Shown piece after piece: positions 5,010 to 46,500 of a DNA stretch of 64,000 bases; within the stretch, counting starts at the first letter, position 1, and the number at the start of each line of letters is the position of its first letter. Under the pieces are notes generated by a model, which saw nothing but the letters and a program-made list of their open reading frames with translations, was not told the origin of the DNA and did not search any database. This DNA comes from Cepaea nemoralis (taxonomy: Eukaryota; Mollusca; Gastropoda; Stylommatophora; Helicidae): NCBI GenBank assembly GCA_014155875.1, contig JACEFZ010018156.1, forward strand, positions 496,001 to 560,000, read 5' to 3'. The position numbers and the translations under genes were made by a program.

Positions 5010-8000
5010 CTGGTGTGACAAAAAGTAAATAATACTATAACTGTATTAATATCATGGAAGCAATTACATTTCTTTTATGAAAAAGAAAAATGGTAGTAAA
5101 CAATGCTAACACTATAAGCTCACTAGCATTAATAATTAGTTAAAACTGCATCAATTTAGCAATACAATTCTATTCTGATTTGTTGGCAGGACATAGCATT
5201 AATTAGATGTTAATATAGATGGTTTAAATTCTTAACTCAACATACCACATATTTCATTTCATGAAATGTGATGGAAAATAGTGACAATGTAGATTTTTAA
5301 TAAGATGAATAATTAGAAGAGATCGCAGATGACCGAGGTAATAAATAAAGAGGTGGTAAGATGATGGGATGTTTAAGATTTTTCTCACACGACCCCAGTA
5401 TGGAATATCTAAAGGTCAGGGGGAACAAGGTTCAAAAGGTAAGTCTTTATTTTCCAAGTTTTAAAAAAAAAACTAAATGTTGTATAGGGTTATAAACAGG
5501 ATATTGTAAAACTGTAAACACAGAAAGTTTGGTAAGTTTTGCACCACGAACACTCACATCTCCCTCTGTCAAGAATGCTGATAATAGTGGCTCTACGTAT
5601 TGACTTTTTGTTGTTTAAGAGTTTAAATAAAATCTTCAAGCACCTGGTCTACACAACAAAAGTAAAAGTAAATGACCCTTTTACATCCCCTAAGGTACAT
5701 TGGGCATTTAGTGTTAGATCCATATTGTGTTAAACCAATCGGCATTTGGTAAGTGATGAGGTCAGCATCGCGCCTTTACTTCCCAAGATGTTTCCTGGTA
5801 GCCATGTTAGATTAGATCACTCTGGCAGCCCAGGTCAGTTTAAAAACTCCACCCCAATGTGAATTCAAACACATGACCAAAGGGCAGACAGACTGTGCTT
5901 ATGTGGCTCTCACATGGTCTATAAAGGCACCTTTTTTGCAAAACAATTTGTAGATATCATTATCATTCAGTAAAACAAGAACACTAATTCTTGTTCACAC
6001 TCTCTCAAAGTATTTATTAACTCCATTCTTGATTTCAAATATGCCCTTCATGCCTGTGAGGAATGATTCCATGATGGACAGAAATGTTGTCGGTCAGATG
6101 ATCTATTTAAACACTTTGTCTTCGATGAAAGCAATAAACAGTGGTTGATTCTGTTCACATCATTTTCTTGCCCCCTTGCTCTTGTGCAGTGTTACATTGC
6201 TTGAATTCCTGTGGGACCTGTCCATCCTACCAGCAAAGCTCTAATAGCTGTTGGATCTGTATAGTATGTCTTGTCCACTCATAATAACCTCTATTGGAAT
6301 CCCATCCTTATTCAGAACCCTCAGAATTTTTAAGAGAGAAAGCACTTACTTAAATTATTTAAAAAAATAAAATTATCCTAACAGCCAAGGTTAAAAACAT
6401 ATTTCATACAAATCAACAATCAGAAGACCTACTTAGTTCTATAATTCCACAGCTTCAGTAAGCCTGAAAAGCTTCCTATGGCAACAACAGGCCTGCAAGA
6501 AGAAATGGTAAAATCATGAACTCAAAATACTAAATGGATTTTTAAAAATATATTTCAGAATCTGACATAATTGAAAAGTGTTAATCTAAAATTGTAGACA
6601 ACATTTTCAAATTTAAATACCTTATTTTGAACAGGTTTTATAAGAACTTTATAAGTTCACTAGAGAGTCAGCTTTCATGCAGACTGTCATACCTTAGATT
6701 GAATCATTTAGTAGAGCTGATATATAAGACACCTAGATTACACTATAGTGCATGATTTGTGTGACAATGTAACACAAGTTGGGATATGCATGACAGTTTG
6801 AGAACCATGCTCACCGTTTAAATTGCAACACTCCATGAATTGGGCTGATCACCACCTATCTGGCTTGCATGAAAGACTATGAATCTCACAGGAAATGTGT
6901 CTGAAGTGATGTGAGCACTGTTACTTTAAAAAAAAATATAGGTAGATATCTAATTATAGCCCTTTCTTGTTACTGTCTTGTACATTGCACTTCACATTAG
7001 CCACTTTATTTGCTGGATTTGCCCAGGATGTAAGGTGTGTCTAAGGTGTGTCTAAGGTGTGTCTAAGGTGTGTCTAGCTGAATCACCTGAGGAAAGACTG
7101 TCAGCAGCCTAGTTATAAATACTGACATTCAAATTAGGTTAATGTTAGCACAGATTGTTATTTTAAAAGATAAATATCTACAAATCACATTTATCTTTGT
7201 CTCCACATTCTTCTTCTTCTTTCGTTCGCTTGAAATATGTCTATATCTGCAATGTCGTCTCTTGCATGAATTGAACTGTTTTTTTCAGTTCACACAGTGG
7301 TCCATAGAGTTTATCTTCCACTGTCGTCTCTCTAGGCCAGAAGGTTTGCCTAGATATGTTATATTTTGGGCAGTCTTGGAGTATGTGCTCTGCTGTCTGC
7401 GACGCCAATCCACATGTGCACATGGCTGTTTCACCAATCTTGAATTTTGTATACATGTGGTTGCGTAATCTATTGTGTCCTGTTCTGAGGCGCAGAATAA
7501 TGACTTGTTCTGGTCTGTCCATAACGTGGTAGTCATCTTGAGCAGGTTTTGGTGGCTTTCTGACTGATTTGATCATTCTTTTCTTTTGGTGGTATGTAAC
7601 GGGCACATCAAGCTGTTCTTCTTTGGCTCCTTCCTTAGCCAATTGATCAGCTCTGTCGTTTCCGGGTACTCCACAGTGAGATGGTATCCACTGTATGGTG
7701 ACTTTATGCTGACTGCTAAGTTCAGAAAGTAGTGTCCTTAGTACTGGCAATTTCCCAGAGAGGAGCGCCTCGAGTACTGATTTTGCATCTGTTAGTAGCA
7801 CCACAGGTTGTGTACCATTGCTGTTATTTAGTAATTTCTCTGTTGCTATCTTGATTGCCTCAATTTCGGCATCATAGTTATGGCAGTACTTTCCTGTCGG
7901 TACTCTGGCTGTGTCCCTAGTATTATTTGGGTATTCTATGTACACTCCCGCTCCTCCATTTCGAACAGCATTTTGTGCTGACCCATCTGTGTAGACTCGG

Positions 8001-11000
8001 ATCCAGAGGTCCTGTGGGTATTCTTCATCAAGGAAGCTGAGAGTGGCTGTTCTGCGCTGCACACTGTTCTGTTCTTCCTTGTCAAATATTCCTCTCACTT
8101 TTGTCTGGATTTGTAATGATAGTCTATGCTCATCTTTCCATGGAGTTCGCTCTGGAATAGTTGTTAGGGGGATACCAACTGTGGGCAGATCAGTGGCTTC
8201 TCTGCAGAGTCGTTTGGCCTGGTGGATAAAACTACTTCTTTTCAACCGCCCCATAGCTAGGTTTTCAAATCTGTTCTTCATAGGGTGGCCTGGCAAGCTG
8301 AGGAACTTTTCTGCTTGTATTAGCGTTTTCGTATCTCTGCGCTCACTCAGTGCCTGTGTCCTCCCCATCTTCTCCATTTCCACTATAGGGGTTGATCTCA
8401 TCCCTCCTGTGGTGACTCTAAGTGCTTGATTTTGCACCTTGTCCAGCTCTTGTAGTGTGGTATTTGATGCTGAACACCACGCAGTTGACCCATATTCCAG
8501 GTGTGGTCGTATGCTCTGTTGGTAAACTTTGCTAAGTATTTTCGTACTGGCTCCCCATGTGGTTCCACTTAGCTTTCTCAGGATGGCTATTTTCCTTCTG
8601 GCTTTTGCTACTGCTTTGTTGATGTGCTTTCTCCATGTCAGCTTGCCATCAAATGTTACTCCAAGGTATGTTGGTTCTTTATCTTCTCTTAGGGGTGTTC
8701 CATTTATCTGGATGATCCCTGCCTTTTGTTTTGGAGAGAGGGTAAATAGGGTGGTGCTGCACTTGTCAGTGTTTATGCTGACACACCATCTATTTGCCCA
8801 TGCAGCAAATGTATCTACAGCTCTTTGTAGCAATCTGGTGGCCACTGATGCATATTCATTTGTGCTCCATAGAACCAGGTCATCGGCGTACATTGCCGCT
8901 TTAATTCCATGCGGTAGGTGAGCAACAAGATCATTGATGAAGATTAGAAAAAGTGTGGGGGACAAGACTCCGCCCTGGGGGACACCGTGACGCAGTAGTA
9001 CTTTCTTGCTCTTGAGTCCGTCTATCTGTACTCGGGCTCTTCTGTTGTGCAAGTATGCTTTCACCCATTTGTACATTCTTCCATTGACTTTGCAGTTTCT
9101 CAATTTCTTCATCAGACCTTCTTTCCAGACTTTGTCAAAGGCTTTCTTCAGATCTATCCATGCCGCAAGCACCAGCTTCTTCTCTTGGAATGCATCCTCA
9201 ATTTCTTGAGAGAGGTAGGTTGTCTGATCTTCCGTAGAGTAGCACTGCCTAAAGCCAGCCTGCTGTGGCACAAGGATGTTTTTACTTTCAATGTACCACT
9301 GCAGTCTGTGATTGATGATGCGCTCCAGTGTTTTGCAGAGACAGCTGGTGAGGCTAATTGGTCTGTAGCTAGAGGCAATGGAACCATCTTTCCCTGATTT
9401 TAGGAGGGGTATCATGATTGCTTCTCTCCAGGCTTGTGGAACACTGCCTAAGGTCCAGCTGTTATTGAAGATCTGCAACAGCTTTGTTTTGGCCTCTGTT
9501 CCTAGGTTCCTGATCATTTCATTGGAGATACCATCAGCTCCTGGTGACTTTCTCATTTTCAGTTTTGATATGGCTAGCTCCAGTTCGCTGATTGTGATGG
9601 GTGCCTCCAGAACCTCTTGTACTATTTCCTTCTGTCCTGTATGTTGTCGTTTCTCTCGAATCTCTTGTTGTTTCTCTGGACTAATTTTGATATTGCTATC
9701 TTGTGCGAACGAGTCCGCAAAATGGTCAGCTGCTTGCTTTCTTGTTAAGATTTTTCCATCTTTATGTAGTGCAATTTTTGAGTTTCTCCCTGTGCCCTCG
9801 TCATTAAGCTGTTTTATTAGCTTCCACAATTTCCTTGTGTCTCTTTCAAAGTTCAGAGACTCCGTTTTCTCCTGCCAGCTTTTCCGTCTAGCCTGCAGCT
9901 TGGCCCTTTGAAATTTGGCTTTTGCATGCTGGAATTTATTGTGGTGCTCTTGGCTGGGTGTGGCCTCTGCTTGCTTTCTACACACTTCAACATCATTATG
10001 CAACTGTTCCAGTTCACTACTCCAGTAGGGTTTATATTGTTTACGGGCTCCTCTTGGTACTGTTTCTCGCGCTGCCTGTAGTATGCATTTCCCAAACTCT
10101 TCAACTGCTTTATTTATGTCTTTCTCAGTGTTCAGGTTTCTAACCAGTATGCTGGTGCGATGCTTGTACATTGCCCAGTCTGCTTTCTTGTAGTTCCACC
10201 TCGAGAGGGTGCTGCTTTCACTTACAAGCTCATTTTCTACGGTTAGAAAGACTGGCCGATGGTCACTGCCACCAAGTTGTTTCCCAACAGTTCTTGTAAT
10301 GTTCCACTCCAGGTCTGGTGAATGAAAAGCCAGGTCAGGTGTAGTTGTAGAGTAGCATGATCTCGAGTAGAAAGTATGTGGGTCGGACGGCTTGTTAATC
10401 AACATGAATCTATTCTCATCTTGCCAGTCTTCCAGTCTCTCTCCTCTCTGGTCCATGTGATCATAGCCCCAGCTCTGCGAGTGGCTGTTGAAATCGCCAC
10501 ACACAATCATTTTTTCTTTTAGTGGTAGAGTGTTCAGTGCCTGTGGGCGGTCACTTGGACAGTAGTAATTGATCAGATGTAGATCTGTATTACCTGTCTT
10601 AAGTTTAAGTGTCTGATACTCAGCCCCTTCCGTGTAGACTTTGATTTGGGAAGCCATGATGTTATTTCTTACAAGGGTCAGTATCCCACCTTTTCGCCTG
10701 TTCTTTCGGTCAGATCGGTAACACTGGTAGCCTCTGATTTTGAAGGCTATATTTTCATTGAGGTGAGTTTCTTGCAAGCAACATATGCTTACTTTCTCTT
10801 TGTCCAGGATGTTTTCTAATTCTACTTTTTTGTTGCTGACTCCCTCCGCATTCCAGTGCATTATTTTAAGTCTTAGTTTAGTATGGCCAGTCGTCCTATT
10901 CTCATGTCCCCTGGCTCCACAGGACATCTGAGAAGGACCTCCAGTAGTTGGGGTTGGACCCTTTCGAGACATAGGGCCCGGCACTGCACCTGCCTGGGGG

Positions 11001-14000
11001 TCCAAAGCAGGGCGAGCACCATAACGATTAGCAGTAGTCGACATATTCCATTTTGCGTGATTGCGTGGCATCCTGATTTCTGTGGTGCGCCTCTTGGCTG
11101 GTTGCCTCCGTCTTCAGCACCTTTCTTTGCTAGAGCAGACTGTGGTCTTACTCGAGTGTAGATGTGTACGCGCGCACACGCCTGTCTGCGCATGCATGTA
11201 CGTGCATACACATCTAGAGCATACTGGTTATTTTCCGGCGCCAGAGACTCGCCGTCGCCCCTTCTCCTGTTAGTTTAAACAGGCCCGCCACGTGAAGGCC
11301 AGGAGTTGGACTTTTGCTGCATAGGTTATGTATTCACGAGCCATCCACATGATTAAAGTTGTCCGGATGGCAGGGCAGCTGTGTTGTTCCTTGAGTTTGT
11401 TGTACAAGCTAGACTGCCAGATATGCTACAGATGAGTGAGCCAACACTACAACACAGCATCCTGACACAGACGCTCTTATTTTGGTTATATTCTCAATGT
11501 CATAAGTTGCCTGTACTTTACACATCATTGCATCATCATTGGCACCTTGCCGTCTTGACAGACGATAGTTTGTGCTCTAAAAAGGCATAATAACTTTTAA
11601 CTATGGCGGTAGCGAGTGTGACTGATAAGGCCAATTTGCGCTGTAAATGTCCGTTCACAGTGGGTGCATGTGAACACGTGGTCATTTCCACCATCATGCA
11701 CCATCTTACGTCTCAAACGCTTGGTGTGTGACTTTTCTGCAATAATTTTCTCCTTTGACTTTATTCCATTTCTGATATTTGCCCTCCACGCAACACGTTC
11801 AGCGGCGACTTGCTCCCAATGTGCATTATCAATGCCTGTATCAATCATGTCCCGCTTACACACATCTTTGTATCGTAGTAGAGGCCGACCCTGAGATCTC
11901 TTACCCATCTGTAATTCACCAAAAAAGATATCCTTTGGTATTCTACCATCATCCATCCTCCTAAGATGTCCTATCCATCTAAGTCTACGAAGACTGAGCA
12001 TGGAATAAACTGTCACACAACCTGATCTTTCCAATACTTCAGTATTTGTGATTTTGTCTTGCCACTTAATACCAAGAATTCTTCGCAGACACCGCATATG
12101 AAAGCTGTTTAAATTGTTCTCTTGGTGTGAGTAAGTTGTCCAGGTTTCACTGCCATAGAGAAGAGTACTAAGGACACAGGCTTGATAGACAAGGACTTTT
12201 GTTTTGGCAGTAAGCTTCCTGTTCTCCCAGACTCTTTTTCTTAACCTGTTCATTGTTGTTGCTGCCTTACCAATCCGGATGTTGATTTCCTGATCTAGGG
12301 ATAATTTGCTATTTACCACTGATCCTAGATATGTAAAATGGTCTACTATCTCTAGTTCGGCGTCGTCAATAAAGATTGATGGTACCCCATGTGCACCTTG
12401 TGACATAATCTGTGTCTTCTTTTTGCTAATTGTTAAACCAAATTCAGAACAAGCATTGGAGAATGCAGATAGTAGACATTGCAATTCTTCCTCAGAGTGG
12501 GTCGTAACTGCAGCATCATCTGCAAAAAGCAACTCTCTGATCAGTACCCTCCTAATTTTGGTCTTAGCCTTCAATCTCTGAGCATTGTAGAGGCCGCCAT
12601 CTGAGCGTGAGTGAATGTATATACCACCATCCTGATCACGAAATGCATATTTCAGTAGAAGTGAAAAGTATATTCCAAAGAGGGTGGGAGCTAGTACACA
12701 ACCTTGCTTAACTCCACTCTTGATTTCAAATTCTTCAGAAGTTGCACCATCAAACTTGATTATACCCTTCATGCCTGTGTGGAACGATTCCACAATGGAC
12801 AGAAGAGTTGGTGGGCAGCCAATCTTCTTTAGTGCCTTGAACAGACCCTCACGACTGACCAAATCAAATGCCTTTGTGAGGTCGATGAAGGCAATAAACA
12901 GTGGTTGATTCTGTTCACGGCATTTTTCTTGCATTTGTCGCAATGAGAATATCATATCAGTGGTAGACCGGTTCTGTCGAAAGCCACACTGTGATTCGGG
13001 GTAGACTTGATCTCCTAGGACTTGAAGTCTGCGCAGAACAATTCTGGCAAATACTTTTCCAACAATACACAGAAGTGAGATACCCCTATAGTTGTTACAG
13101 TCGCTCCGATCACCCTTGTTCTTGTACAGCGTTATGATGTTTGAATCTTTGAAATCCTGTGGGACTTGTCCTTCACGCCAGCATAGCTCTATTAGCTGGT
13201 GGATCTGTAGAGTGAGTGTTTCTTGCCCACTCCTGATAACCTCTATTGGAATCCCATCCTTACCTGGAGCCTTGCCAGATGCAAGTTCATTTATAGCACA
13301 CTTAACTTCTGTTATGGTGGGAAGTGTGTCCAGGTGGTCAAGAGTTGGTAGAGCCTCTATGGCATTTAGGGCATCATCCGCTAGTTTGGTCTCACTTGAG
13401 TAAAGCTCCAAATAGTGCTCTACCCATCTGTCCATCTGCTGTTTCTTATCAGTGATGACTTCTCCAGTCAAGGTTTTCAGCGGTGCACTTCTTTTGATCA
13501 CTGGACCACAGGCTTTCTTTATTCCTTCATACATGCTTCTTATGTCTCCCTTATCACTTGCGATTTGAATGGACTCACATAACTTGATCCAATAATCATT
13601 TGCACACTGCCTGGCAGCCTTTTGCACATCCTTCCTAGCTTGCCTTAGCTCACTCAGAGTGTTACGCGTTGGTCTTTCCTTGTTTCTTAAGAGAGCTTTC
13701 TTCTTCTTATCAATCAAGGGCTGCAGAGTCTCGCTGTTGGCCGCAAACCAGTCCTGCCTCTTATGATCCACAGTGCCGTAAACCCCTACGGCAGTTTTAT
13801 AAAGAGTTTCCTTAATTTGACCCCACTTTTCATTTACTGTACAATTTTCTGGTGTATCAGTGAAAGCGTCTTCAAGTTGCTGTTGAAACTGAAAGCACTT
13901 TTCAGGATCATGAGTGTTAATAATATTAATCCTGGGGCTAGATTTGTGTTTAGCTGTGTAGATTCTCTTTGGTCTCAGTCTAACTCTTGCAACAACCAAA

Positions 14001-17000
14001 GAATGATCTGTATCACAGTCAGCACTGTGGTAACTACGAGTCAATGATATATGGTTCAGATGTTGTCTCCGTGTGATGATGAAGTCCAGCTGGTGCCAAT
14101 GGCCGGATCTTGGATGTTTCCATGTGACCTTATGCATCTCTTTTGTTTTAAAAAAAGAGTTTGTAATACATAGGTCATTACTGGTGCAATGCTCCAGCAG
14201 CCTTTGCCCATTTTCATTCATGCGACCGATGTTGTATTTTCCAAGGGACACTGGCCATGAACTCGAGTCCTTGCCCACACGAGCATTGAAATCACCGAGC
14301 ATATAAATGTAGTCAGATTTTGGAACTGCCTTGATCACGGAGTCTAACTCCTCATAGAACAAATCCTTCACATCATCAGAGGAATCGAGTGTCGGTGCAT
14401 ATGCAGTAATAATGGTGGCAAACCCACAAGAGGTTGCCAAGCGCAGGGATAATAGTCTTTCATTTCCTCCTGCTGGAATTTCAATCATTCCCAGTAGCGA
14501 ATTCTTCACTGCAAAGCCCACACCGTGTTGCCTTTTTTCTGCCTGCCCTCTACCCTTCCAGAAAAAGGTGTAGTTGTTTTCCCTGAGTGACCCTTCCTCA
14601 GCGAGGCGAGTCTCCTGCAGGCCAGCAATATCAATGTTAAGACGATTGAGTTCGGCATCAATCACAGCCGTTTTTCTCACATCGTCAATATTGGTCAAGT
14701 CAGTGGAAAATCCTGGACACATGGTTCTCACGTTCCAGGTTGCAAGCCGTAGCTTGAGGTTTCTATTTTTATTTTTGTTTGTACCTGGTGCATTGGTTTT
14801 ACAGCCTGCGATTCAGATTTTGTCCTAGCCCCAAGCACCCATTGAAGCAGGCAGGCTGTGGCGGATCAGCACCCAATTGGCTGGGGGCTGCCCAGCTTGA
14901 GGCGGGCGGTAGCTGATCAGTGACACCTATAGGTGTCTCCCACCGTCAGAGGCAACACGTGGCGCCCCATGTCTACGCCAACTGACAAGGACTTATAACC
15001 CGTAACAGTTGCCTCTCGCTTTGATTCCGAGACCAGTTAAGACCAGGGATGGAGTTATTGCCTCTCCATAGCACAAAGCCTGGGCTAAAATATAGAGATC
15101 ATGTGTTGCCCATGCAGCATGATCCCTCTCTCGGCCTGCCTAGTTCACTCCAGAGGAAAGGTAACACCCCTACATCTGGAACAAGACAAGCTGCAGAAGC
15201 TGCCGGATCAGCAAAGCATTGCTCTAACTGTCCGCCTGTCGGAGCTTCGATCCTAGACCAGTCGCCAACCAAGGCTTAGGGCCTGGTAAGCCCTGCCATG
15301 ACAATTTTGTCTTTAGCTTGCATTTCCTCGCACCAGGGTAAGGCTTGTACCCTCCCAATTGTGCTCTTCCGCCCGAAGCCGTACTTTACACATACAGTTA
15401 TGATAATCATATAGCAGTCAAAGAAGACATTTTTGGAACAGACAATATACAATTTATACACAGAAACCACAAACAATGACAAGGTTTCAGCCAAATTACA
15501 GTTCATTTATTCACTTCATATGATAATTAACTCTGTAGTATGCACTTGACCAGATGCAGCAAAATATGCCAGGCAATCACATGTGCAATCTATTGTTTAT
15601 GACTTCTGTGTTTAAACAAAAATGATACTTTCAAATGCAGATAACAATACTGTCATACTTTAAGTCATACTTACAGTCTCGGGTGGCAGTCCAAGGCATG
15701 CACAGCTGAATCATGTTCTCTGTGAATGACCTAGTGTGTGTGTGTACACATATACTGATTTAGATTGTTTATACAGTGAACATGTAATGAGATGTAAAGA
15801 AAATAAAGAAACAAAAGCCACTAGAGATGGTTGTGGGCAATACAAATATGGGTCTAACATTATATGTTCAATGTGCTTAAGGTGTGTAAAAGGATCAGGT
15901 GACTGATTTCTGGCCAGTCCCATGAACTCAATTTTTTTTTTCGCTTGCTCACCCGCTCGCTTTTGAACTCAAGTGTAGACCATAGTACAATTTATAGTAG
16001 TAATGGACTGAATTTAGCATGTGGATTAGCTTTCTCTATTAACAGTGTCCCTTGCCTTCAGGCAAACCCACTTTGACTTCAGAGGTACTTGTAATTTACG
16101 TCCCCAAGTCAAGGACAACAGGTCAACATTTTAGTCCAGCTGCCTGGTGTAGGGGCTGAACCGCTTACCTCAGCATCAGCACAAAGAATGTTTAAGAACA
16201 CGTGTTCTTACCCATTCAACCATGTGGACCTGCACATGAACTCAATTAAGTGTTAATCTATATCTCCATAGCCTTGCATCTCTGTCAAAAATACCATTAT
16301 TCACCTCTGTTCATGCATTTTAATAATCAATATGGGCGTAAATCAGTAATTAGATGTTTGATTTTAATTTAGACAGCACAGTTAGATGTATCAAATTAGC
16401 AACCGAGTATGAACTATATGGGGTTAGTTACACATCATTAGGAGCCAGTGCCTATATAAACAAAATAATTCACAGTGACAAGGTTAGTTACATATCCCTT
16501 AAAGTCAACCCCCAGCATTATTTGGCTGTTTGTGATTTCTAGGCAAGTTTACGTTCAGTTGTTTGCCATTGTTTTTTAAATGACTGGCACTTATACCATT
16601 GTAACAAAACCTGTGCAAGGTGTTCTGTTTCCAAATCGCCTGCAGCTGTGTTTCAAATGTGGTATGTAGGATTGCGAATTATGTCCGTAACCCCTTAACC
16701 ATAGCTCTGCCAATTAACATTGGATGCATTGAATTCGACAATTATTCCAAATAAGGTCGCCCACATCTGGTAATGATATAATCCTTTTACATTTGTAGGA
16801 AAAAGTAATGGGCTACTTAGCTGTGTGGATTAATGGTGGTTTTCTCACATGTTCAATGTGGGGGTCATAGATTGAGCAAAGATCTATACCCAGCCATTCA
16901 CTAGCCTATTAGGTTAAGCTGGTCACTCTACAGGCAGTTTGTTTACAATTTTTGTGGCAATATTATTGCTTTTTATAATCTCAGTTCTGTTATGCCCACT

Positions 17001-30500: not shown

Positions 30501-33500
30501 TTTGTGTATTTCATGGGTGTACGAAGGAACAGGTGGCAATACTTTCCCTCCCATACAGAATGATGGCATCAAACACTAGTCCAACCGCTCTCATGCCATT
30601 GTGAGTGTAACGTCTTATCCATTACACTAACACACTCACTAAGATACACTAACAAGTATACACAATCTTTAACAGCCAATATTAATTTTCTGAACAAATT
30701 AACTTTTGGAAAATCTAGAATACAACTTACCCAGTGAAAGAAAAGAACCTGTGATTCACTATTTGTGACAAGATGATGTATATCAGTTGGGTCAAAATAA
30801 ATGAAACTTTGAATTCCATATTCTGGCTTCAGATCAGCTGAGCAGATTGGAACATCACCATCGACTGTCCAGTTCCAAATGGCTAGAGTCTGACCAAATA
30901 AACATGATAATTTTCATTATGTGAAGGCTTTCTGTCTTTTATTTCATAAATTCGTAGTTAAATTAGGTGAAGTCAGTAAGTCAGTTACAAGTGGACAGTA
31001 ACATAATTATTTATTTTTGGACTTATATTCGCAGTTAAATGAGGTGAAGTCAGCAAGTCAGTTACAAGTGGACAGTAACATAATTATTTATTTTTGGACT
31101 CATATTTCTCTGTTATTGATACAGTTATCCCATCACTGTATCAATGCTTCGAAACATGCAGCCTAGGTGACCTTTCTGGTGGAAAATGCTAATAGTACTC
31201 TTAGTGAACTCCAAAATACTGTAGACATAACCTTCTTGGCTAGTGGAACAATCTAGAATTTCTTGACTGAAGGGGAAGAGGATGTTTCTATTGTGATTCA
31301 TGTTGTCCTAGTGAATCACCTGGGCATCCACCATGAGCACTCTTTCTGAATATTCAACTGGTCATGCATTAAAGTAAAAACATCAAGGACCTTTCACATA
31401 CTTTGAGGCAAACCGGGTTCATATTGTTAGTTCTATATTTGTATAGACAATAGGCACAATAGGCACTCAACAGGTGATATGGTTATGCTAGCTGCCTTTA
31501 TTTCCCAGGACATTTTCTGATACCCATTCTACAATGGGTCGAAGTGAGAGCCCAATTAAAATAAAACCCTCATTGAGGATTGGAAAATATGACTTTTGGG
31601 CACACATGTTAGCATGCTTACTATTGCTGTTGCTATAGTGTCTATTTTTACTTGTCCGTCTTTTGGAATCATCTCCTCAATCCTCAACGAATATTTTTCT
31701 GTCACAATCTCAGTGTGATAAATTAACAGGCCAGTCTTCATGAATAATTTTGTTAGTGTCTTTTGAAGAAATTATCAACTCATTCATGTAGCACTTTTGA
31801 AGAAATTATCAACTCATTCATGTAACACTTTTGAAGAAATTATCAACTCATTCATGTAACACTTTTGAAGAAATTATCAACTCATTCATGTAGCACATTT
31901 GGAGAAATAATCAACTCATTCATGTAGCACTGTTGAAGAAATTATCAACCCATTCATGTAGCACATTCAGAGAAATTATCAACTCATTTATGTAACAATT
32001 TTGGAGAAATTATCAACTCATTCATGTAGCACTTTTGAAGAAATTATCAACTCATTTATGTAGCACTTTTGAGGAAATTATCACCTCTTTCATGTAGTAC
32101 TTTTGGAGAAATTTTCAACTTGTTCATGTAGCACTTGTGATAAACACTTTTCACTATAGACAGGTAACAATTCCTTATAAATATCCTTCTCATTAAGTTT
32201 TTATGTCCCATCCCCTTCAAATGTGCACAACAGCATGCTGTTCTATTATTGTACACTGCACAAGTGCAAATGTCATTTTTATCTACTCTGCACTTGCTCA
32301 TGCAATTACCAAGTTATCTAAGCAATTTGTAAAGTTGGATGATGCTTTCACTGAATGAGACCTATAATAAACTACAAACTATCTGTTCAGCTTCCCCATA
32401 TCTGTATATAACTTATTGAGCTTCCCTTTTAGGAAACACTATTTTGACTGTGAAGATAGCCTTCCTTTGAGCATGATCTGTGACTTTTACTCTGGGATGC
32501 TAAGATAATTAACTGAAACGCCGATCGCATTCCGGCACGAACCTAAGGCCTATCCACGTCATGGAAGCACTATACTCGAGTTTCGCCCTCGTTTGAGCTC
32601 GTCAGTAGTGCATATCCCTGACCGGATCCGGAAACAAGCCCCGGATCACGCGTGTGAAGCGGGTGTGTAACCACGCAGCACACACTGGACACGCCAAATT
32701 ATCACACCGGAATACCACAACGCTACCCATCGTAGGCTATGCTCAAGATTGCCCAATCGCCGCGACTGACGTCCGTCAATCGATGTGGACCCGAACGATC
32801 AGGACTTCTCACTGGCAAGGAACACCAGGCCTCCTAAATCCAGTGAGCAATGATAAAATTGATTATTTGGTTGTTTCGGGATTTGAAATTTAAATATTGA
32901 GCACAACCCACTACTGGAAACGCCGATCGCATTCCGGCACGAACCTAAGGCCTATCCACGTCATGGATTTAGGAGGCCTGGTGTACCTTGCCAGTGAGAA
33001 GTCCTGATCGTTCGGGTCCACATCGATTGACGGACGTCAGTCGCGGCGATTGGGCAATCTTGAGCATAGCCTACGATGGGTAGCGTTGTGGTATTCCGGT
33101 GTGATAATTTGGCGTGTCCAGTGTGTGCTGCGTGGTTACACACCCGCTTCACACGCGTGATCCGGGGCTTGTTTCCGGATCCGGTCAGGGATATGCACTA
33201 CTGACGAGCTCAAACGAGGGCGAAACTCGAGTATAGTGCTTCCATGACGTGGATAGGCCTTAGGTTCGTGCCGGAATGCGATCGGCGTTGCCAGTAGTGG
33301 GTTGTGCTCAATATTTAAATTTCAAATCCCGAAACAACCAAATAATCAATTTTATCATTGCTCACTGGATTTAGGAGGCCTGGTGTTCCTTGCCAGTGAG
33401 AAGTCCTGATCGTTCGGGTCCACATCGATTGACGGACATCAGTCGCGGCGATTGGGCAATCTTGAGCATAGCCTACGATGGGTAGCGTTGTGGTATTCCG

Positions 33501-36500
33501 GTGTGATAATTTGGCGTGTCCAGTGTGTGCTGCGTGGTTACACACCCGCTTCACACGCGTGATCCGGGGCTTGTTTCCGGATCCGGTCAGGGATATGCAC
33601 TACTGACGAGCTCAAACGAGGGCGAAACTCGAGTATAGTGCTTCCATGACGTGGATAGGCCTTAGGTTCGTGCCGGAATGCGATCGGCGTTTCCAGTAGT
33701 GGGTTGTGCTCAATATTTAAATTTCAAATCCCGAAACAACCAAATAATCAATAATTAACTGACTCATAAAGGAAGATCAGCATCATGCCAACATTAAAGT
33801 AAACATGTTAGGCTTAATGTATATAAAATTACAAGAAATACATATCAGCTGAAATACCTGCACAGGTAAAGCACTGAGTGTTGCCAAGAATCTGGAATCA
33901 GGGGTTAAGGATACTGCAACCACCCCTCCTTTAGGGTTTGGATCAAACATGGTTTGAATTGGAGTCCTAGGATAGTTAATAATAAATGAATTAGTAAGTT
34001 AACAAGGCATCTGAGTATATTTAGTGTGTCTCAGAGGTATATCTCACCCCCACTGGTCCGATAGTTGACTCATTACATTTATACTTGCCATATTAATTAA
34101 AGAGATAAGAGTTGTTGGAGGTTATGCTGCCAGTGTTGTCAACACAAGCACATGAGGGTTTGATGTCTGTACTCACCATTCACTGTGGAAAGACTGGCCG
34201 CCTAGTCCTCCATGCACTCAGGCCTTGTGGCATAATGGCTAACCACCATTATTCAGTTGACAAGAATTCAAGCCAAGAAGAGGAGAAAATATAAAACAAT
34301 GGACTTTGCTAACGCAAACTGAAACCAAACCTTTAAAACTTAATGCAACATCAAAACTGGAACTGGAACAAGTGACAGATGACGTCAATTCTAGGAAACA
34401 TTTCATCAGCCCAAGCTCAGGAGATCATTGGACAAAACAGACATGTGACACTGCTTCCGCGCGAAACGCCTGTTTGGAAATGTTAATCGCGCACTCTTCC
34501 TAAAACATGCCTGATGAACAGACGTGAAAGCTAGTGTGACCGGATTTTCAAATAGGGAAGGCAGAATGTCTGGATCCCAGTGAAATCTTGGTGGCAACCC
34601 AGTTGGCAACCCACAACCAACCAGCTGGCAACCAACTGACCAACCAACCAAACCAGATCCCAGAGAGAGAAAGAGATGACCCACACTTGAGATGGAAGAA
34701 GACTTGGTCATGGGCAGAACTGGAGTGGATCCATCAGTCAATGGACCCAGGCTTATCCAAATCTCCCATCACAAGGGTACCTTTCTTTTAGGAACACACA
34801 ACACTCAGTTTCAGGAACTGATACATAAATGTTGATTTCACTATCACCACACTTAACATGTACAACATTCAATTGTTTACCATGTTTTCACACTTGTTGA
34901 CATCATGTATATTGATGCTTATTTATTGATGGTTTGTAATATTGGTCCTATATGCATGTTTCTAATTTATCTTGTGTACACCACAATAGAAATGTACATG
35001 ACAGGCCAGAAGACACAGGCCCATTCAATAAATAATTAACTGTCACTGATCTTATGTTGATTATTGGTTCAACCTATCTGTGATTCTCCATCTTATGTGT
35101 GTACACTAAGTTATCAAGATCTATTGTGATTGGTTATGTGTTTAATTGTTTAAAAACAAATTAACTCATGAAGGAATATGTAATTGGGAGAGACTCAAGG
35201 TCTATCAACTGCTCAACATCCATGCTTTCTTAACATAAATCAGGCTGAGAGAATTCTCCAGACTTTCCTCAGATTTGATAAACAAAAGGGGGGTTCAAGA
35301 GCTATAAGAATCCTTGGAGAAGGGGCAGAATCCCAGTTGGTATTTATTATTTTCACCAGGGCCATAATCTATATCTCGTAGACAAAATTAAATAAGACGA
35401 GGCCTGCAGATAACTCGAGGGTCATATTCTGGGGTTATTGAAGACAGAAGAGGATGGGGCCCAACTTCTTTGATTAGAAATGGGGCATGCACCAAAGTGA
35501 TTTCCCACTCCCTTCAAAAATATATGACAGGCCTAAACAATGTTATGGTGATAGCCCTTTTACACCCACAGCAATTCCTGCTATGGAACTTTATTTTAGT
35601 TGTCTCATATTTGTACATTTCTTGTGAATTAATGAGCTACATTTGTCTCATATATGTACATTTCTTGTGAATTAATGAGCTACACTTGTCTCATATTTGT
35701 ACATTATGAAAGCTATTTCATGTGAATTAATGACCTATAGGTGTCTCATATCTGTACATGTGTGTTGGAATAACAGCTAAGTAATTTTGCTGATAATGGC
35801 ATGTGCGTGGTTGGGTGATGGTCGACACCTGCCCTCAACATTCACTGGGGTGGGGGAAGAGAGGAGAAGACTGGCCATCTATTCTTCCATGCAATCAGTC
35901 CACAAAATATGACATTTCTAACACTGCACATACCCACAGCAGGCTTCTACTTTGGGACTTTGTGTAAAAAGAATGCCGAAAGTTATGCTATATAAATTGC
36001 AGTATGTGTCAGTTGTTTTGTTTTCACTGTCTGTTGTTGGCAACAACAACTTTAAACAACACACTAAGAAGTTACAAGCAAACAGGCAACAGTAGTGAAA
36101 AACTGAATGTTACCCTGTGTAAGTATCCCAAATGTTAACCATGGCGTCTGGCCCAACATCTCCTGTAACAAGCCATCTTTTGTCTTGTGACACGGCTGAG
36201 CATCTAATTGGGTTAAGCTGTGGAAACAGTTACAATCATCATTTTGAGATGTTCATGATGACAGATATGGCCAACTCATCAAGCCTCAGGTTGAATAATA
36301 GGAATACAGAAGTATTGGTGATAAAAGATGAATCGATCATGCCTAAGAGTACAATCAAAGTAAATGGTATTAATTTGGAGTAAGTGCAGAAATGCAAGCT
36401 ATCTAGGCACACATATAACATCATATGGAAAATGCATTAAATTAAATACAGAGATCAAGAACAGTAGAGGACAGGCAACAACTACAATATATGAGGGCGA

Positions 36501-43500: not shown

Positions 43501-46500
43501 TATAAAACCACATTTCTGCAGCTTCTACATAACTCCTTAGTCATCTGCTAATTGCCCATGATACACTTCCATACATCAGGATTGATTCAATATAGCTCTT
43601 AAAGACTCTTTTTTCTCACCTCCATTGGCAAAGATACATTGCACAGAATATTCTTCATCTGGTTTTTGTAGACATAAAATAATATATTCATGATGCAAAC
43701 AAAATGTAAACATAACACTTTAAAACTCTTACTTACACCAACAAGACCATCTCCTGCAGAAAAAATGAAATACAAAAGATCAGTGAAAACTACATTTTCA
43801 CACATATTCCTCAAAATATTAACATGCAATGTTTTTCAAACATTAAAATAACCTATATTACTGAGTAACACAGATTTAAAATACATCCCCAAATAATACA
43901 GCAAAGTTCAAAGTTCAACATGTTTAATGCCATCATCACCATGTAGCAGGTTCTTTGTAGAACATCACTTGCACTATGGCCTGCCAAAAAGTTCTAGATT
44001 TCTTGCCACTGAACCTCATGCCCAAGATGCCTGCCAAAAAGTTCTAGATTTCTTGCCACTGAACCTCATGCCCAAGATGCCTGCCAAACAGTTCTAGATG
44101 TCTTGCCACTGAACCTCATGCCCAAGTTGCCTGCCAAAAAGTTCTAGATTTCTTGCCACTGAACCTCATGCCCAAGATGCCTGCCAAACAGTTCTAGATT
44201 TCTTGCCACTGAACCTCATGCCCAAGATGCCTGCCAAACAGTTCTAGATTTCTTGCCACTGAACCTCATGCCCAAGATGTCTGCCAAACAGTTCTAGATT
44301 TCTTGCCACTGAACCTCATGCCCATGATGTCTGCCAAACATTTCTAGATTTCTTGCCACTGAACCTCATGCCCAAGATGCCTGCCAAACAGTTCTAGATT
44401 TCTTGCCACTGAACCTCATGCCCAAGATGTCTGACAAACAGTTCTAGATTTCTTGCCACTGAACCTCATGCCCAAGATGTCTGCCAAACAGTTCTAGATT
44501 TCTGGCCACTTCACCTCATGCCCAAGATGTCTGCCAAACAGTTTACATTTCTTGCCACTGAACCTCGTGCCAAAGATGTTTGCAACTTCCTATCTAACTT
44601 TGTGCTGGTTGACCCCTGCCTCTATTTCCAAGAAACAAGTCTTCCATCCCTGTTGTTTCTAAGCCACTGTGACGTTTTACTTGGTCAAAGTATTTCAGCT
44701 TCCGACACATGAAGCTGTTTATGAGCCAGCTTTCTTCGAATTTCAGATCTCCTCGAATGTCCATATTTTTCTTTTTGGTCAACAATATTCAAACAAATTT
44801 TTTGTAACATTTAAGCTCAGTACGAACAGATATAATTAATAATATCATCAGTAAGAGCAAACAATACACAATTAAGAAGACAATCACAATATATTTTAGC
44901 AGTGATAGTTTTTATCTCCCTCAACACTCCAAGTCAATAAGACTCCAATTATAACCAGTATGTTTTAATTGCTATCATTCTTAACTCATCTTACCCAGTT
45001 TTATAATCATTTCAATATTTTACAAAGTTAATGCATTTGGAGAGGCGCGGCTCACCAAGTGACTAAGAATGCCGGGTTCTCCATCGGGTGACCCGGGTTC
45101 AAATCCTCAGTAAGGGGGAAAAAAGAAAAAACCCTAACCTGCACAGTTCGTGGTGACTGCATCCTGGCAGGCAAGCTAGACACTGTAGCGGAGACCATGA
45201 TCAATCCTCCTTTTGTTAGCCAGGCTAGTGTCTGCCCAGGATGTCCCATATGGAAGTGAAGAGAGATTCACATAAGTACATCAGTGCAACATTTTATGTT
45301 CACCTGGGCAAGATGACTGTCTGTAGTAATTCAAGCTTTTGAATTAACAACATTATTTTAAACAAGTCCACATTGGTTGGTGAATGTGATGTAATTTTCC
45401 ACCTACAATGAACCTCCTCCCTCCTGCACACACAGACAAAGTATAGCATGTACATACACACACATGTGGACATGCACTATGACTGGACTTACTTGCATTG
45501 GTGTTGGTATCAGGCTTTTCCTGAAAGGAAGGGTGAAAGATGTCAGTTGTATTTTGTATAAACTTTTGTCCTTTTCATAATTTCATTCATAATGAAAACA
45601 TATGAAGACGAAATATGACTGCAATAGCAAGTAACATATATAAAATCAATCAAATCTAACCAACATTGGATGATGTATGAAGACAATCTGTATTTCTCTT
45701 ACAATTAGAAATGTCAATTATCTTATGGTACATTTTGTTAACTGGTTCACTGCCCCCAATTTAGTGTATATTTGGACCAAGCAAAGATTGTTGGCAGAAA
45801 ATGGGAAGTAGGGGTGTGTCACAGTAATAATCTAAAAATGGTTAAAATGGTAGCAGCTATATTTTATTATATATCAAATTAAAGGAGATTGCACAAGGAA
45901 CATGTTAGTATTGCTACTATTGCTATAGGTTAGAAATATAATAATAATATGGTTAGATTTTGTAAAAAGAAAATTGAAGTAGTTCATTTGCGCCGACCTA
46001 TCAGCTCATGGCAGGCAACTAGTTAAGGAACTTCAGCTAGGTAGTTCAGTGGCTAGCACTCTTGCCTGGTAGCCCCATAGTCATATATTCAAATCCAAAT
46101 CAAGGCGGATTTTTCTAATTAATCTGGGCTTCCAGATCTACCAAAATGGGTACCAGAAAATGTCATGGGAAGTAAAGTCAAACCACATCAGCCATCTAGT
46201 GTAGGTTGGTCTATACAAATCTATGGCTACTCCTGTGTGTTGCCGGGGCCCATAAGGGAAGCAAAGAATAGCAACACTGTAGCCTACCACGCATGTCGTA
46301 AGAGGCGACTAAGGAGGCTTGATGGTTCCGTCGCCCTGCTACTGAGTGAGTGCTTGGCGCGACACTGTGAGCTGTGAGTTTCATGTGAAATGCTTTTTTA
46401 ATCTGCCTGAGGTTTTTTGGAACGTGACTGCATGTTCGGAGTGATGGCAGGTGGCTATGTCCCAGAGCTGACCAGTTTTTGCCTTATGCAGAAATGCGTG

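Follow-up and report, generated by a model that had tools for sequence, protein, structure and literature searches.

Metazoan retrozymes without long terminal repeats (LTRs) have been described, in the sections of the published account drawn on here, as units of ~150-450 bp arranged from dimers upwards, carrying type I hammerhead ribozymes and giving rise to self-paired RNA (PMC7229834). The same sections report target-site duplications (TSDs) of more than 4 bp "when present", and a GC content below 50% as usual rather than defining. Tandem complementary DNA (cDNA) was proposed there to be copied from circles, with the priming step and the enzyme left undecided and Penelope-like elements (PLEs) named as strong candidates. 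Plant LTR retrozymes, as portrayed in the portions of the sources cited, are likewise non-coding and hammerhead-bearing, but differ in having type III hammerheads, LTRs, a primer-binding site and polypurine tract (PBS/PPT), and 4-bp TSDs (PMC4918200, PMC7229834, PMC7761336). The present analysis concerns a 64,000-nt stretch of the genome of the gastropod Cepaea nemoralis (contig JACEFZ010018156.1, positions 496,001 to 560,000; hereafter the window), in which an insertion built of 402-bp hammerhead-bearing units was found at 32505-33762. Its two arms are joined head to head within a 12-bp TSD, and the element is almost certainly a non-coding metazoan non-LTR retrozyme of a new family.

PLEs provide the second point of comparison. 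Their head-to-head inverted pseudo-LTRs (pLTRs) are flanked by TSDs of 8-10 bp, with a 31-bp "tail" at one pLTR, according to the part of PMC3846280 that deals with them. A PLE protein was reported to cut and extend both target strands, starting internally in an AC-rich stem loop, and the PLE "tail" of 30-40 bp was identified as the stretch between two start sites (PMC11167929).

The window's insertion was delimited, without assignment of a strand, by alignment of its units and of the flanking repeat. The left TSD copy, ATAATTAACTGA (32505-32516, + strand), is followed by an inverted arm of 451 bp (32517-32967, - strand), corresponding to 1.12 units, whose outer end lies at phase 401 of the reference unit (33290-33691, + strand, with phase 0 at 33290). 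The forward arm, 789 bp or 1.96 units in length (32964-33752, + strand), ends at phase 60, termed site A, and overlaps the inverted arm by 4 bp at the inner 5'-5' junction (32964-32967, unstranded). The right TSD copy (33751-33762, + strand) begins with two bases that fit the element too (microhomology). Three differences were found among the window units, each private to a single unit. The GC content of the retrozyme, 51.2% compared with 36.9% in its flanks, departs from the usual value of its metazoan relatives. No frame of at least 130 amino acids was found within 32505-33762; lacking a frame for reverse transcriptase (RT) and GIY-YIG endonuclease, the element is therefore not itself a PLE. 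No LTR-like flanking repeat was seen in the array, and no search was aimed at a PBS or PPT. A BLAST comparison of the unit with the rest of the window, long interspersed nuclear elements (LINEs) included, gave no match.

The sequence-only reading of this DNA had described, at 33184-33650, two same-orientation type I hammerheads 402 bp apart and a third, identical copy in inverted orientation. Its sequence and coordinates proved accurate: the copies lie at 33195-33239 and 33597-33641 on the + strand and at 32567-32611 on the - strand, and the tandem repeat has a period of 402, with 2.0 copies and 99% matches. All invariant bases are present (core CUGACGA, GAAA, and GUA), together with stem I of 6 bp (GCACUA/UAGUGC), stem II of 4 bp including one G-U pair (GCUC/GGGC), and stem III consisting of an A-U and a C-G pair capped by UCGA. 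Cleavage is predicted after 33233 and 33635, in agreement with the GUA triplet. A strict pattern of core and paired stems matched three times in the window, and not once in 100 mononucleotide shuffles. The expected correspondence with the Rfam type I model held in part: all three copies matched Hammerhead_1 at 33.1 bits (E 5.2e-6 in a 1.5-kb search), but this is 0.9 bits below the gathering score of 34, which is why a whole-window Rfam search at that score gave no match at all. The short stem III had been called typical of relatives, and the axolotl ribozyme HHR_Amex1, which cleaves better as a dimer, is indeed said in the relevant part of PMC7229834 to have a weak stem III closed by a palindromic tetraloop. 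Scans of a collection of viral contigs with the window hammerhead and with an Rfam-like type I consensus gave no match in either case. The inverted copy, left unexplained by the sequence-only reading, which also overlooked the 12-bp flanking repeat, belongs to the same insertion and is the most informative of the three.

The 3.47-Gb assembly (26,579 contigs) was searched with one 402-bp unit. Within the 40 candidates scored, of 1200, 285 matches were found, and the 150 matches listed were 99-100% identical to the query. All 39 other places among the 40 were fetched for comparison with the window. Three places were dropped, namely L022 (the same insertion as L021), L031 (the same as L028), and L043 (truncated where its contig stops, and also head to head), leaving 37 independent insertions, the window included. 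L021 and L022 represent one insertion found twice on contig C3728, in opposite orientation and ~19 kb apart, while L028 and L031 lie on two different contigs; these repeats may reflect duplication, haplotigs, or assembly artefact. The compared insertions are those most similar to the query, hence probably young, with older copies outside the sample. The sequence-only reading had proposed that mutated cores in most genomic copies would count against it; in the fetched loci the core was kept in 193/193 hammerhead copies, 182 of them identical over all 45 nt, in a sample of the most query-like loci and with a finder that allowed up to 6 edits and could miss heavily mutated copies. Its assignment to the retrozymes was thus borne out by the type I hammerhead, the 402-bp tandem units, the many near-identical copies, and the predicted self-pairing of the RNA, whose circular minimum free energy is -163.4 kcal/mol (z -6.4).

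The arrangement seen in the window was found to recur among the insertions compared. Two arms are present in 24 of the 37 insertions and one arm in 13, L027 being counted among the latter despite a 29-nt second fragment. In all 24 two-arm insertions the arms stand head to head, and the RNA 3' sides face outward. Statistics on the ends were computed on 23 two-arm loci, to which L046 was then added. One outer end lies at phase 58-65 in 22/24 and the opposite end at phase 27-34 in 19/24; both preferred phases are used in 17/24, and in no case do the two ends belong to the same class. Two 8-nt bins thus contain 41 of the 48 outer ends, compared with 1.9 expected. The spacing between the two starts is 28-35 nt in 15/20 loci, and exactly 31 nt in seven of these 20. 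Single-arm insertions have their outer end at phase 59-63 in 11/13 and at 28-30 in the other two. The inner ends behave differently from the outer ones, fitting a uniform spread (Kolmogorov-Smirnov p 0.77) with no relation between the arms. Arm lengths range from 71 to 4236 nt, or up to 10.5 units, both arms exceed one unit in 16/23, and two-arm arrays reach ~17 units overall. Insertion of a linear monomer with its end at the ribozyme cut (phase 345/346) was considered and rejected, since no outer end of the 24 two-arm loci lies there; the nearest, the left end of L025, is at phase 341. This end, 4 nt before the predicted cut, has the look of a copy made from the end of a linear monomer.

A TSD of at least 12 bp was identified in 20 of the 24 two-arm loci: 12 bp in twelve, 13 bp in four, 14 bp in three, and 22 bp in one, so that 19/20 fall at 12-14 bp, as expected if the stagger is almost constant at 12 bp and the repeats are extended by chance. 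The 22-bp TSD, at L024, lies within a tandem repeat. In a control using 21 loci (the duplicate L022 included), a repeat of at least 11 bp was found in 15/21 true flank pairs, compared with 1/420 mismatched pairs. For L033, L015, and L017, related sites that lack the insertion and have one TSD copy could be aligned across the target; L033 was inserted in a relative of a LINE of the window, and the LINE copy at window positions 12197-12005 provides its empty site without gaps at 93.8% identity. Among the single-arm loci, a repeat of at least 9 bp was found in 6/13 (9, 10, 11, 11, 11, and 16 bp, the 16-bp one lying in a tandem repeat); an 11-bp match at L038 is element sequence and was excluded as a TSD. 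Two-arm TSDs, where found, are never shorter than 12 bp (Fisher 9e-5 against single-arm loci, in a post hoc test devised after the data had been seen), which would fit retention of both overhang tips, each used as a primer. The motif at the target is weak and no more than suggestive (A at -2, G at +1, and T at +2).

The sequences at the two ends are consistent with priming by the cut target. Over a mean of 2.0 and 2.1 nt at the two ends (20 loci), the tip of the target agrees with the RNA bases that follow, compared with 0.54 and 0.87 nt in a swapped-target control, none of whose 2000 replicates at either end reached the observed value. The stretch between the two start sites, from site B (phase ~29) to site A (phase ~60), is AC-rich (33319-33350, + strand); phases 42-60 are predicted to be mostly unpaired, and the remainder of the RNA strongly paired. 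By analogy, this stretch is the putative counterpart of the PLE "tail". A scan for it in 195,600 unmasked bases of the flanks and the window gave partial matches only, with up to 4 mismatches and many in simple sequence, and a PLE motif had no match in the flanks and window.

The two arms of an insertion also share sequence variants. The allele test comprised 25 loci, including L043 and the then partly fetched L046, of which 19 include phase 67 in each arm. Scored by majority allele, both arms had A at 13 loci and G at six, with no discordant locus among the 19; at L025, 2/9 units of one arm deviate at this phase. Variants common to both arms amounted to 26/94 within loci, compared with 66/2852 between loci (0/20,000 permutations), and at least one such variant was found in 16/25 loci. 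Gene conversion between arms could add to this sharing, while leaving the ends and the TSDs unexplained. The allele pattern of the L025 minus arm and the L015 plus arm recurs every four units (GGAGGGAGG; GAAAG), which may reflect multimeric circles or later duplication.

Genes of PLE type are present in the same genome. At least 107 matches to GIY-YIG exceeded the cut-off, in frames of up to 909 amino acids, and one PLE-type family (L051-L058) has frames for RT and GIY-YIG that are 851 and 909 amino acids long. The 909-amino-acid frame scored 26.6 bits for GIY-YIG (cut-off 22.6) and 27.9 bits for RVT_1, slightly under the cut-off of 29.6. The family is laid out partly in tandem (L057) and partly head to head (L052, L053). 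In the latter two loci the 3' positions at which the arms stop differ by 137 nt, resembling the two-site rule; these were not counted, as the loci are almost copies of each other, the shorter end is bordered by the same sequence in L051, and no TSD above 6 bp was found.

For the anatomy, the TSDs, the two preferred start sites, the microhomology, the variants shared by the arms, and the PLE-type genes of the genome, the best explanation, and one that appears reasonably likely as a whole, is two-ended priming on circular retrozyme RNA by a PLE-type enzyme acting in trans. Oligomeric transcripts would be cut by their own hammerheads, and the 402-nt monomer circularised by a host ligase, both steps being reported for relatives; we infer the activity of the ribozyme here, as we do the circular template, also invoked for plant retrozymes, and the enzyme. 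A nuclease would then cut the target with a 12-bp stagger, leaving two 3' overhangs that would each pair with ~2 nt of the RNA and serve as primers for reverse transcription: site A (phase ~60) would be used by one, and site B (phase ~29), ~31 nt upstream, by the other. Each cDNA would travel a variable distance round the circle until the two arms meet 5' to 5' and are joined. Such an event would leave a head-to-head array whose 3' sides face outward, flanked by a 12-bp TSD and with one arm longer by a "tail" of ~31 nt. It is very probable that the two ends of a single target break both acted as primers, and the same circle probably served as template for both arms; a PLE RT with GIY-YIG endonuclease is the most likely enzyme, an attribution that is somewhat favored. 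The layout resembles that of the PLEs of Adineta vaga, with head-to-head inverted copies, a ~31-nt tail on one arm, and a short TSD (as far as the relevant part of PMC3846280 goes), and that of Anolis PAc, with its internal AC-rich start and extension of both target strands (PMC11167929). Unlike PLEs, the retrozyme lacks a coding frame, bears a full canonical ribozyme where PLEs have the minimal type, repeats many uniform units in each arm, and has a TSD longer than that given for PLEs in the same part of PMC3846280. Bipolar head-to-head arrays with two start sites were not found described in the open-licence PMC literature, supplements aside.

Several observations weigh against this explanation. 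A 12-bp TSD is absent in L010, L012, L035, and L040, and on average ~4 of the 12 or more TSD bases match the element too. When the outer 25 nt alone were compared, only 4/21 true pairs shared at least 9 bp, the mismatched maximum being 9; this contrast is weaker because the repeats extend into the aligned element ends. Gaps at or close to the TSD interrupt the alignments of L021 and L032 with their empty sites, and a search for an empty allele of the window site matched the two occupied flanks only. In the window itself the inverted arm has its outer end at phase 401, off the usual ~29, and the two-site rule is also broken by L010, L024, L025, L032, L035, and L044. In L010, L013, and L015 the outermost units of both arms differ from most inner units; therefore, not every array corresponds to one uniform template, and template switching or multimeric circles may also be at work. 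No start-site sequence or hammerhead common to the retrozyme and the PLE family was found, in a comparison covering one family at six loci, and no start-site difference between the top and bottom strands was seen in PMC11167929. Assembly errors within the arrays are also possible.

Two-ended priming might instead have taken place on long linear multimeric transcripts. In vitro, the anole PLE was found to use mainly unprocessed RNA as its template (PMC11167929), and the alleles inside some arrays are mixed. This alternative is nevertheless unlikely: arms reach 10.5 units, and transcripts long enough to serve them would have had to carry many intact ribozymes without being cut, and relatives accumulate RNAs of 170-400 nt, with circles abundant, in the portion of PMC7229834 that treats them.

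It is also doubtful, to a slightly greater degree, that the enzyme was that of a LINE (APE-type non-LTR), the inverted arm arising by ordinary twin priming as in human LINE-1. Twin priming, in the section of PMC2837659 that describes it, yields inverted, truncated 5' parts between TSDs from a second priming event; the window itself holds two long LINE frames, and 13 of the 37 insertions are single-arm, 11 of these ending at site A. In the retrozyme, however, the second start is fixed ~31 nt upstream, the TSD length is nearly fixed, two arms are present in most insertions and often exceed one unit, no poly(A), A-rich, or simple tail was seen at the site-A ends, and the unit lacks any BLAST match to the window LINEs.

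Self-priming or fold-back of a single cDNA, as proposed for an antisense Penelope template with an identical layout in the pertinent part of PMC3846280, would account for the variants common to both arms; it is highly improbable and was rejected, because the inner ends of the arms are unrelated (10 nt or less apart in just 2/23), while the outer ends lie ~31 nt apart, each with microhomology to the target. Ordinary satellite expansion by unequal crossing-over, inversion, and gene conversion, which would suit homogeneous tandem units and to which gene conversion might contribute arm-shared variants, has next to no probability given the TSDs, the related empty sites, and the fixed outer phases and orientation, and was likewise rejected.

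The remainder of the window holds other repeats and coding frames. One tandem array lies close to the retrozyme at 31760-32140 (34-bp unit, 11 copies, 88% matches) and another at 43979-44578 (50-bp unit, 12 copies, 95% matches). The two long open LINE frames, at 7241-11113 (- strand, 1290 amino acids) and 11597-14812 (- strand, 1071 amino acids), both measured from stop to stop, each contain endonuclease and RT domains, and the former also contains RNase H. A protein search with the window LINE gave 1015 hits; the few that bore a name among the 120 listed included Branchiostoma and Batillaria.

Two-ended priming on circular RNA may extend beyond this family. The evidence leans, if slightly, toward a general scheme in which animal retrozymes move by two-ended rolling-circle target priming, with a dimeric PLE-type enzyme, a single 12-bp staggered cut, and two dedicated sites 31 nt apart generating a bipolar multimer, the PLE "tail" and the head-to-head pLTRs being the footprint of the same act. 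Such a scheme would offer an alternative to antisense self-priming for the head-to-head structure of Penelope, and would link the smallest elements with ribozymes to the machinery of Penelope. How the retrozyme re-enters the genome is recorded in dozens of nearly identical insertions, probably young, through the stagger, the start sites, the microhomology, and the template variants; these insertions make retrozyme movement testable.

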